From Actinoallomurus purpureus (lineage in GTDB: Bacteria > Actinomycetota > Actinomycetes > Streptosporangiales > Streptosporangiaceae), in assembly GCF_024055795.1 (NCBI RefSeq), contig NZ_JAMXMY010000027.1, positions 1-64,000 on the forward strand: 64,000 nucleotides of DNA, read 5' to 3'. The stretch's first letter is position 1; each line of letters opens with the position of its first letter. Under the pieces are notes generated by a model. That model worked only from the letters and a program-made list of their open reading frames with translations, did not search any database and was not told where the DNA came from. Positions 13,971 to 16,663 of the stretch are shown here, piece after piece. The translations under genes were made by a program, and so were the position numbers.

Positions 13971-13993
13971 CGGTCAGAGCGTGACGACCCGGT
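13959..13993. terminator. bidirectional terminator between convergent genes
   Basis: ACCGGGTCGT (13959-13968) pairs with ACGACCCGGT (13984-13993). The hairpin spans both convergent stop codons, so it can end both transcripts. Confidence 0.5.
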
Positions 13994-14738
13994 AGTGAGT
14001 GGTCAGCCGCCCCTCGTCGTCCAGGACGTGGAAGGCGAGCGCGGGAGGGATGTCGAGGTCGACGAGGCCGTCCGTGTCCGTCCCCCACGTGCCCGTCTCC
14101 CAGGGCAGGCGGGTGGTGGAGACGACCCCGGGCGCGACCAGCAGCGGCCGGCCCGCGAACGCCGTCGCCGCCGGGGTGTGGGCGTGGCCGCACAGGACGG
14201 CGACGACGTCCGGGTGACGGCCGATGAGCCCGGCGAGCCGGTCCTCGCCGAACTGCCGGATCCCGTCGACGTACGGGGCGTGCAGGACGACGGGCGGGTG
14301 GTGGAAGACGACGAACACCGGCGTTCCGGGCGGTGTCTCGACGAGCACCCCCTCCAGCCAGGTCAGGGTCTCGTCGTCGAGACGGCCGTCGTCCCGCCCC
14401 GGGATCGACGAGTCGCACATCGCGAATACCGCCCCCGCGATGCGGTGCGCCTGGTTGACGGGTCCGTCGCCGACCGGCTCGTCGAGAAGCACCTGACGGT
14501 ACGGGGCGCGGACGTCATGGTTGCCCGGGCAGGTCAGCACCGGATGCCGGGAGGCCAGGAGCCGCCGCGCCTCCTCGTACTCGGCGGGCAGTCCGTGGTC
14601 GGCGATGTCCCCGGTGACCAGGATGGCGTCCAGGTCGTACGGCAGCCGGTCGAGGTACGCGAGGACGGCGGCCGTCCGCGCGGTCGCGCGCGGCGTGCCG
14701 TCGAGGTGGGTGTCGCTGAGATGCGCAAAGACGATCAC
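13974..14738 (-). CDS. calcineurin-like metallophosphoesterase (CpdA-like)
   Basis: 254 residues. The full class III phosphodiesterase metal-site series is present: SDTH near residue 8, VTGDIADHG, PGNHD, a His in FHHPP, and CGHAHT. Order and spacing fit the CpdA/Rv0805 group, which hydrolyses cyclic nucleotides and other phosphodiesters in the cytoplasm. No signal peptide. The downstream half ends in a short beta-rich segment typical of this group. Single gene, convergent with the saccharopine-dehydrogenase-like gene. Confidence 0.9.
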   Translation of the reverse strand: MIVFAHLSDTHLDGTPRATARTAAVLAYLDRLPYDLDAILVTGDIADHGLPAEYEEARRLLASRHPVLTCPGNHDVRAPYRQVLLDEPVGDGPVNQAHRIAGAVFAMCDSSIPGRDDGRLDDETLTWLEGVLVETPPGTPVFVVFHHPPVVLHAPYVDGIRQFGEDRLAGLIGRHPDVVAVLCGHAHTPAATAFAGRPLLVAPGVVSTTRLPWETGTWGTDTDGLVDLDIPPALAFHVLDDEGRLTTHYRVVTL

Positions 14739-15224
14739 ACGGCGACCGTACGTGGCGCGTGCGAGGGGTATGCAGCGCCACTATGGGTCAGAAGCCGGCG
14801 ACCACTTAATAGAACCTACGGAATGGCCCGTGTATTCAGGTTCTGGGGTGGAGGCGGGAGGTCGGGGTGGTTCGGAATACCGGCGGTAGCGAGAGTTCCC
14901 TCTGGTCGCTGAGGCGCCGGCGCGGGGCCGGCCTGGCGTTCGTGTCGACCCGAGGTCGGCCACGGGCCGATCGTGGTGCGGGCCTTGATGGGCGCGGCCG
15001 CGGTGGTGCTGGCCGCCGCGACGCCAGCTGAACCATCGATGTCCGGGGACCAGCGGATGCTGGCCGCGCAGGTGGCCCGCCTCCAGCCGCGCGTCCAGGC
15101 CGAGGAGCTGGCCGTTTGCGCCAATACGTCGTTTCCGGACGATCTCAATGAGGCCACCCATCCAGGGCTGCCTCGGGCGCCTAAAGGCGCCACGACGATC
15201 GACACAAACAGGGAGTCAATAGCA
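14739..15224. other. 485-bp region without a recognised gene
   Basis: Open frames exist on both strands but none has a ribosome site plus family-like sequence. The main content is a perfect GGCGCC-TAAA-GGCGCC hairpin close to the following small gene. Long upstream leaders like this can hold regulation of the Cys-rich peptide gene. Confidence 0.4.
15176..15191 (+). promoter_or_regulatory. 6-bp perfect hairpin upstream of the Cys-rich peptide
   Basis: GGCGCC, TAAA loop, GGCGCC, ending 33 bp before the ATG and 19 bp before its GGGAG ribosome site. It is a candidate leader structure or operator; function inferred only. Confidence 0.3.
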
Positions 15225-15362
15225 ATGCCCCAGGAAGAGAACACCAACAAGCAGCTCCCCTGCGGCTGCACCGGGACATGCACCTGCGCGTCGGACAAAC
15301 TGGCGTGCGGCTGCCGGGGGACGTGCATCTGCTGGCTGGTAGGCGACTGGCCAGCTAGCTAG
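15225..15362 (+). CDS. 45-residue peptide with duplicated CGCxGTCxC motif
   Basis: A short gene with GGGAG 9 bp before its ATG and its own strong terminator. After a polar 12-residue start (MPQEENTNKQLP) come CGCTGTCTC, a six-residue spacer ASDKLA, then CGCRGTCIC, and a tail WLVGDWPAS: eight Cys in 45 residues in two equal nonapeptides. The duplication also shows in the DNA (15261-15287 against 15306-15332). It could be a metallothionein-like metal chelator or a precursor of a modified peptide, but no maturation enzyme, protease or transporter lies nearby. It belongs to no family I recognise. That it is a gene is fairly sure; function is open. Confidence 0.6.
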   Translation: MPQEENTNKQLPCGCTGTCTCASDKLACGCRGTCICWLVGDWPAS

Positions 15363-15389
15363 CCAACTAGTGCCGGCCCGCTCAACATG

Positions 15390-15418
15390 CCCCCGGCGCG
15401 CAGTGCGCGCGTCGGGGG
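15390..15418 (+). terminator. strong hairpin terminator
   Basis: CCCCCGGCGCGC pairs with GCGCGCGTCGGGGG across a five-base loop (one G-U pair), 27 bp after the Cys-rich peptide stop. No other gene on this strand could use it. Confidence 0.7.
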
Positions 15419-15580
15419 TATCCGGAAGGGGGCCTCATCCGCCACAAGTCGGTGGTGTCGTGAGTTAGCCGCCGGTGATGTCTCCTTGCCGCCGGTGTGG
15501 ACGGCGGATTGTCCCGGATCGGGCGGATCGGGCGGTCAACGACGGCGGCAACGTGGAGGGGGCGGCCCTGCGGCCCCCTC

Positions 15581-16663
15581 TCAGCCCGTTGCCGTTGTGT
15601 ATGCCACTGGCGTATAGGCCGGGCCGCAGGAACTGGCGCAGGAGGACGGGAGGGAGAAGGAGTACACGCGGCCGCCGCCCACCGGCGCGTCGGAGGCGTC
15701 GACGACGCGGATCCGGTAGTCGCGGCCGGCGGTGGCCGTCGGGGCTATGACGTACGCCTGGCCCATGTCGCCGTCCATCGTGGCGTTCTTCCACGCGCTG
15801 CCGTCGTAGTACTGCACGCCGTGGATCCCGTTCGGCAGGTGGGAGACCGCGATGACCGGCCACCAGACCTGGGCGTTCTGCAGGAACCCGATCTTGATGT
15901 CGCCGGTGTATCCGGGCGCGGACACGAACTGCCAGCTGATGTGCCGGTTGTTCCAGTGGTTCGGGTACATGTCGCCGACCGGAGCGCCGTTCTTGACGAA
16001 GCGGTTGAGTGACCCCTGGGCGAGGTCGAGATGGTACGGATCGTCGCGGCACCAGGCGTTGCCGTCGGCGCAGCTGTCGGCGACCAGCATGGTCAGCGTC
16101 GCGCCGTCGTAGGCGTCGGCGGTCCAGGAGCCGTTCCGGCAGAACGGCTGGTTCGGCGCTCCGTCGTTGACGCCTGTGCAGTAGTCGCCGATGGTCACCT
16201 GGACGTACCGGCCGCAGTTCAGGCCGTTGGCGAAGATCCCCATCCGGGCCGCGTCCGACGCGGCGATCGGGCGGGGGTAGCCGTTGTAGTCGTGCGGCGT
16301 GTTGAAGACGTTGAGCGCGACGAAGTCCTGGCTGTCAATGTTCGCCTGCGGAAGGCCGCACCCGCCGTACGGGGAGCCGAGCCCGGTGAACCAGGTCGCG
16401 TTGCCGGTGACCGGGGACGACGCCGCCGGAGCCGCCCCGCCGACGCCCCCTGGGGCGACCGCTGCGCCGGACGACGCCCCGCCGGCCGCACCGCCGACGG
16501 TTCCGGGGGTGGCCGTCCCTCCGGAGGGTGTCCGGGCGGCCGGTGCGGCGAGGGCCGCGGTGTGCGATCCGGTCGCCATCGGGGACGTGCAGGCGAACAT
16601 CAGCGCGCCCACGGCCGGCAGCCACCTACGCAGCCGGTAGCGCCTGCGGTTCCGCTCGGGCAT
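15581..16663 (-). CDS. secreted expansin-like protein
   Basis: 360 residues. A signal peptide is followed by a Gly/Ala/Pro/Thr-rich linker to about residue 85. A six-stranded double-psi barrel (about 88-240) then opens with TWFTGLGSPYGGCGLP; the key acidic residue of expansins is in DPYHLDLAQGSLNRF. A C-terminal beta-sandwich (about 250-360), the CBM63-like second domain, completes the classical two-domain plan. Expansins loosen cellulose-pectin or cellulose-glucan contacts without hydrolysis. It lies 24 bp downstream of a pectin methylesterase and surely shares its mRNA. Confidence 0.85.
   Translation of the reverse strand: MPERNRRRYRLRRWLPAVGALMFACTSPMATGSHTAALAAPAARTPSGGTATPGTVGGAAGGASSGAAVAPGGVGGAAPAASSPVTGNATWFTGLGSPYGGCGLPQANIDSQDFVALNVFNTPHDYNGYPRPIAASDAARMGIFANGLNCGRYVQVTIGDYCTGVNDGAPNQPFCRNGSWTADAYDGATLTMLVADSCADGNAWCRDDPYHLDLAQGSLNRFVKNGAPVGDMYPNHWNNRHISWQFVSAPGYTGDIKIGFLQNAQVWWPVIAVSHLPNGIHGVQYYDGSAWKNATMDGDMGQAYVIAPTATAGRDYRIRVVDASDAPVGGGRVYSFSLPSSCASSCGPAYTPVAYTTATG

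Follow-up and report, generated by a model that had tools for sequence, protein, structure and literature searches.

A 45-codon open reading frame with two CGCxGTCxC units in Actinoallomurus purpureus, a candidate gene for a metallothionein-like peptide

Here we describe an open reading frame (ORF) of 45 codons in Actinoallomurus purpureus that encodes a peptide in which the tetracysteine nonapeptide CGCxGTCxC stands twice. The ORF, its cysteine pattern, the internal repeat and the approximately 820 nt of extra DNA around it were found within a stretch of 64,000 nt, analysed as a whole and referred to below as the window. Our tentative reading, held at a little under even confidence, is that this is a gene of recent origin, restricted to the strain and coding for a metallothionein-like peptide, with translation and metal binding inferred from the features that we set out here. 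The peptide would act like a metallothionein and is a member of no family tested; the idea of a small cysteine-rich metal peptide is itself fairly ordinary.

The ORF, its cysteine units and its signals

The encoded peptide, MPQEENTNKQLPCGCTGTCTCASDKLACGCRGTCICWLVGDWPAS, contains eight cysteines among its 45 residues, laid out as four CxC pairs (CxC-x3-CxC-x6-CxC-x3-CxC). The two copies of the nonapeptide unit (Table 1) are identical at 22 of 27 bases. A sequence-only reading of this DNA had drawn attention to two CGCxGTCxC copies in a 45-residue peptide, and both the sequence and the coordinates proved exact. Dinucleotide shuffling of the window, repeated 100 times, never produced a double CGCxGTCxC, and the ORF has the highest cysteine density among the 461 window ORFs of 30–80 codons (one start per frame). 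In the organism's own 9.25 Mb genome, the looser DNA pattern TGYGGNTGYNNNGGNNNNTGYNNNTGY matches twice, both times at the units of the ORF; its backward control also matches twice, so that single matches to the loose motif are not rare but the pair is. Among 84,980 species genomes, a scan for the double motif (first cysteine codon TGC, threonine or proline after the second glycine, and 1–11 residues between the copies) returned three places, all of them tandem repeats, indicating that the twin arrangement is very rare by chance. One of these (L044) lies in a tandem repeat opposite an 807-codon Pro/Gln-rich ORF, and the other two (L043 and L045) were set aside from their tandem repeats alone. 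The twin-cysteine sequence is real and rare, and it is unproven as a gene.

Table 1. Coordinates of the ORF, its units and signals, the surrounding features and the phage protein family with the twin motif. Positions are those of the window unless a locus is named.
Feature	Coordinates	Strand	Remarks
Metallophosphoesterase, left neighbour	13974-14738	-	
Stretch of about 820 nt without counterpart in related genome G001	14756..15576		46 nt in G001
Frameshifted, truncated PycTM-like fragment	14926..15024	+	89% identity to a segment of a PycTM-like gene of contig C40, same genome
Leader hairpin around GGCGCC-TAAA-GGCGCC	15173..15195	+	z -2.1 (41-nt piece)
Shine-Dalgarno-like AGGGAG	15210..15215	+	9 nt before ATG
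ORF, 45 codons plus TAG, eight Cys	15225..15362	+	Translation in text
First CGCxGTCxC unit	15261..15287	+	CGCTGTCTC
Second CGCxGTCxC unit	15306..15332	+	CGCRGTCIC; 45 nt after first unit
15-pair hairpin, terminator-like without T tract	15387..15421	+	z -3.3 (63-nt piece)
Imperfect palindrome, about 84 nt	15468..15551		Diverged copies elsewhere in genome and genus
Expansin-like protein, right convergent neighbour	15581-16663	-	NCBIfam match well below cut-off
Phage family with twin CGCxGPCxC	L029:6213-6947; L039:6215-6955; L042:891-1556	- (L039)	

The signals around the ORF bear out the earlier description in part. The ribosome site, which had been called good, is present and would pair with the 16S tail at -7.5 kcal/mol; by comparison its strength is ordinary to good, being matched or beaten at 10.5% of the 1066 window ATGs and exceeded at 10 of 18 chosen CDS starts. 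The leader hairpin that had been described upstream folds well. Beyond the stop codon, starting 24 nt past it, the proposed private terminator survives as a strong hairpin, without the T tract and without a report from the terminator scan. The signal scan found no sigma-70-like promoter for the ORF; a hairpin lacking a T tract and the want of a recognisable promoter are not unusual in actinobacteria. Rfam, searched over 14500-15900, gave no match at E values up to 1.

Codon choice and the divergence of the two copies were assessed post hoc, with the sequence known and on copies that are not independent. The third codon position is G or C in 39 of the 45 codons (P 0.005 at GC 0.69), and among 5000 base-composition recodings of the same peptide 0.42% fit the codon habits of the window, taken from 18 of its genes, equally well. 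The codon score of 0.62 lies at the bottom of the range of the 18 reference genes (0.62–0.84); when 2371 open stretches of 45 codons were drawn at random from the window, 25.5% scored at least as high. All five differences between the 27-nt copies spare the cysteines, glycines and threonines, an outcome that arises in 0.43% of simulated cases when five substitutions are placed at random and in 4.7% when three are, the three changes within one codon then counting as a single event. Start site, codon choice and between-copy change each moderately favour a real gene, and the description of the ORF as a credible unnamed gene retains moderate support from the start site, the codon choice and the retained motif.

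Relatives of the peptide and the surrounding DNA

Profile searches with the peptide gave no family in Pfam and NCBIfam at E values up to 10, and none in PHROGs and PADLOC, in agreement with the earlier statement that this is not a known bacterial metallothionein. The PDB returned a single meaningless match (E 1.6); further PDB searches gave a best E of 3.5, a best E of 0.019 (for an SH3-like stretch outside the motif) and, in one case, nothing. Neither a collection of 72,556 plasmid records nor one of 50,697 phage records yielded a match at E values up to 1, and comparison with plasmids at the DNA level gave three matches of 40–46 query bases, outside the ORF. Translated searches were run against overlapping sets of genomes. 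At E 0.1, matches were seen in 20 of 100 relatives, of which one is the window itself and the others are weak; the weak matches were rejected as homologues because the 24 re-aligned loci retain at most five of the eight cysteines (five in L014, four in L007, L013 and L024, and three or fewer in the others). The search of 341 family genomes, with a limit of E 0.005, returned the window and a single further match (L236 in G202, E 2e-4), which was discarded with three cysteines retained and an internal stop. With the limit set to E 0.001, the window alone was found in 396 genomes of the phylum and in 394 of the class. The loose single motif is present in at least 180 of the 341 family genomes, where its backward control looks, by eye, at least as frequent; from 49 single-motif loci inspected by eye among the matches listed, only L106 was kept. 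Homologues with conserved cysteine spacing, which the sequence-only reading had expected of a gene, were found by none of these searches, made in part on public collections that may omit the window's own genome, and this outcome counts against a conserved gene family. The spacing is otherwise common only to unrelated phage proteins, and titles and abstract beginnings in the literature revealed no paper on the motif or the peptide.

The ORF lies in DNA that two related genomes lack. Similarity to G001, the only related genome with both flanking genes, ends at about 14755 and 15577, and the gap between the metallophosphoesterase and expansin-like genes measures 842 nt here versus 68 nt there. 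The expansin-like protein has no Pfam match, and a pectinesterase gene follows on its right. In a second relative (G005, L072), the stretch, the expansin-like gene and the pectinesterase gene are all absent at the matching place, and the other five genomes of the genus have no comparable locus (the metallophosphoesterase is 40–42% identical in four of these and lacking in one). We consider it likelier that the approximately 820 nt represent an insertion here than a loss elsewhere, with the direction unproven.

Within the stretch, the PycTM-like fragment shows, on comparison by eye, a change of frame and the loss of both ends. Its counterpart in the same genome (G000:C40:11338-11435; L073:5088-5582) belongs to a gene that matches Pfam PycTM just above the cut-off (28.3 versus 27.2 bits), has an FtsK-domain gene 1.4 kb away and probably sits on a mobile element. 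Comparison of the insert DNA with the family genomes gave, besides C40, matches of 32–64 bases that were judged to be chance. The stop-to-stop frame that contains the ORF spans 149 codons and runs through the PycTM-like fragment, in a window with a GC content of 70.7%.

Copies of the palindrome (L233, L234 and L235) were seen on contig C17, in G001 and in G005, with four full or partial copies within 6 kb on contig C17.

Among 51 genes called in the window, 20 proteins were scanned, including that of every gene placed by the rough caller within about 5 kb, and none of them was recognised as a regulator or exporter of metals. The window encodes a mycothiol-domain protein, and its response regulators match heavy-metal models below cut-off only.

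The motif in phage proteins and competing explanations

A scan of viral sequences for CGCxGTCxC returned 110 stretches, 80 of which were examined, and its backward-motif control 116, so the raw number of viral motif stretches is not raised. The motif falls within the longest frame (at least 100 codons) at 15 of 80 viral loci versus 4 of 80 control loci, both sets containing near-duplicates. By eye, the form MARCGC[SG]GTC[SAG]C stands near the start of proteins that we label tail-fibre-like from their likeness to L106 (L125, L129, L131, L154, L161 and L167, with one identical stretch shared by L125 and L131), and the motif occurs near the N terminus of collagen-like proteins (L145, L163, L171, L172, L188, L195 and L200, with one identical stretch shared by L171 and L195). 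It is also present in a head–tail adaptor (L179; phrog_783, E 5.5e-68), and L180 is such an adaptor by likeness. The N-terminal part of L106 is matched by 16 phage records, mostly annotated 'hypothetical protein' but including Streptomyces phage TP1604 gp25 ('tail fiber assembly', E 7e-3), in which the motif is found in degenerate form only, CDCAGLGADGCMC. PHROGs hmmscan of the L129, L029 and L166 proteins gave no family.

Seventeen viral places carry the double motif, and three of them (L029, L039 and L042) represent one real protein family. Two of these phage proteins, which share 70% identity, both keep the twin CGCxGPCxC but vary in the x residues and the spacer; the L029 protein has no named-phage match in the phage collection. 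The other 14 places were dismissed by eye as CGC or other repeats or as short low-complexity frames. Phage tail-fibre-like, collagen-like and adaptor proteins share with the peptide the same nonapeptide, CGCxG[TP]CxC, once doubled, but they are larger and have no sequence in common with it that we could see outside the motif. This recurrence in unrelated phage proteins, once in doubled form, suggests that the motif could be a tetracysteine hairpin module capable of reuse. A bolder proposal, which we regard as improbable, is that CGCxG[TP]CxC is a free-standing tetracysteine β-hairpin, perhaps the smallest genetic metal–thiolate unit, that arose independently in phage structural proteins and bacterial peptides, and that the bacterium here built a miniature metallothionein de novo within a remnant of mobile DNA, through the duplication of a single such unit.

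A serious possibility, to which we give appreciable although minority weight, is that no peptide is made and that the ORF is a chance frame in relic DNA, in which case an insert now in decay would have acquired the 45-nt duplication by accident. The failure of every search to return a homologue, the absence of the stretch from G001 and G005 and the relic-like surroundings indicated by the broken PycTM-like fragment all speak for chance, as do the ease with which frames stay open in such GC-rich DNA (the 149-codon frame being an example), the spread of the loose single motif through the family with a backward control that is seemingly no rarer, and a codon score that a quarter of random open stretches attain. 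Such a frame sits less comfortably with two clean in-frame copies behind an ordinary to good ribosome site, with the restriction of the double motif to three tandem repeats in the 84,980-genome collection, and with the codon choice given the peptide and the retention of cysteine, glycine and threonine. The phage proteins suggest another origin, in which the ORF would be a remnant or exaptation of a cysteine-rich part of a tail or connector protein and the motif would make disulfides or hold metal; what commends it is that CGCxGTCxC occurs both in the phrog_783 adaptor and, on viral contigs, in tail-fibre-like and collagen-like proteins, and that a twin CGCxGPCxC is conserved. We nevertheless judge this origin unlikely, as neither the peptide nor the surrounding 149-codon frame matches PHROGs, and the peptide has no match in the phage collection and no visible similarity outside the motif.

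Least probable is a ribosomally synthesized and post-translationally modified peptide (RiPP) precursor, in which a leader of 12 residues would precede a core rich in cysteine and threonine, the latter to be heterocyclised or crosslinked. The composition of the two units, mostly cysteine, threonine and glycine, and the short, charged leader would suit such a precursor, but the 20 scanned window proteins, which cover about 5 kb to the left and right of the ORF, include no recognisable maturation enzyme, so that the crosslinked peptide suggested earlier is left without support, and no cleavage site was recognised by eye. Taken together, the arguments from the start site, codons, cysteine pattern, structural model and likeness to fungal proteins favour a metallothionein-like peptide over a chance frame, a phage hairpin or a RiPP, and we infer that a new metal-binding peptide, as had been proposed among other options, is the best reading of the ORF.

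Proposed metal-binding peptide and known metallothioneins

The metallothionein-like peptide would be a small cytosolic metal–thiolate protein with a 12-residue soluble tail followed by two C-x-C-x3-C-x-C units. Each unit would form a tight β-hairpin with the turn x-G-T, placing cysteines 1, 3, 7 and 9 on one face, such that the four thiolates could hold one Zn(II) or Cd(II) or take part in a shared cluster of Cu(I); the pair of units would have been born by a 45-nt internal duplication, and the peptide would serve in buffering copper, zinc or cadmium. The best of five AlphaFold2 single-sequence models (mean pLDDT 64, with residues 21–40 near 80; 46–58 in the others) has strands at residues 26–30 and 34–38, giving a hairpin across CGCRGTCIC, and no strands called in the first unit; the hairpin fold of the units is accordingly a low-confidence prediction. 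If translated and metal-binding, the peptide would represent an orphan bacterial metallothionein of two units that resembles a portion of the fungal copper thioneins in its construction, its gene would have been caught shortly after birth by duplication, and its 9-residue module would be open to direct testing. If not translated, the ORF would stand as a warning about cysteine-rich frames within GC-rich relic DNA.

As is expected of bacterial metallothioneins, the peptide is small and very rich in cysteines that are arranged in CxC pairs, whereas the match to a curated profile that would also be expected was absent from Pfam and NCBIfam at E values up to 10. The cysteine pattern of MymT, the mycobacterial copper metallothionein, differs from that of the peptide. 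Like the peptide, MymT is small and cysteine-rich and, in the passages of PMC7558416 that concern it, comes from a once unannotated actinobacterial ORF. SmtA/BmtA proteins are likewise small and cysteine-rich, the metal–thiolate character being presumed in the case of our peptide, and differ in the zinc-finger fold attributed to them in the same passages (PMC7558416), the peptide matching no Pfam or NCBIfam model.

The closest parallel is with the fungal copper thioneins (Neurospora/Agaricus family 8 and Tremella TmMT), which PMC4755600 describes as very small or built of units and whose growth it attributes, as a hypothesis, to duplication of the unit. The Neurospora unit is given there as [CXC]-X5-[CXC]-X3-[CXC]-X2-C and the TmMT repeats as CXCX3CSCPPGXCXCAXCP (PMC4755600). 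Common to these proteins and the peptide are the CxC-x3-CxC spacing and the glycine or small residues between cysteines (PMC4755600). The peptide departs from the family 8 pattern CxC-x5-CxC-x3-CxC-x2-C, the fungal unit in those excerpts having seven cysteines and the peptide two four-cysteine units six residues apart. The likeness in cysteine spacing between the peptide and the fungal copper thioneins would be convergent.
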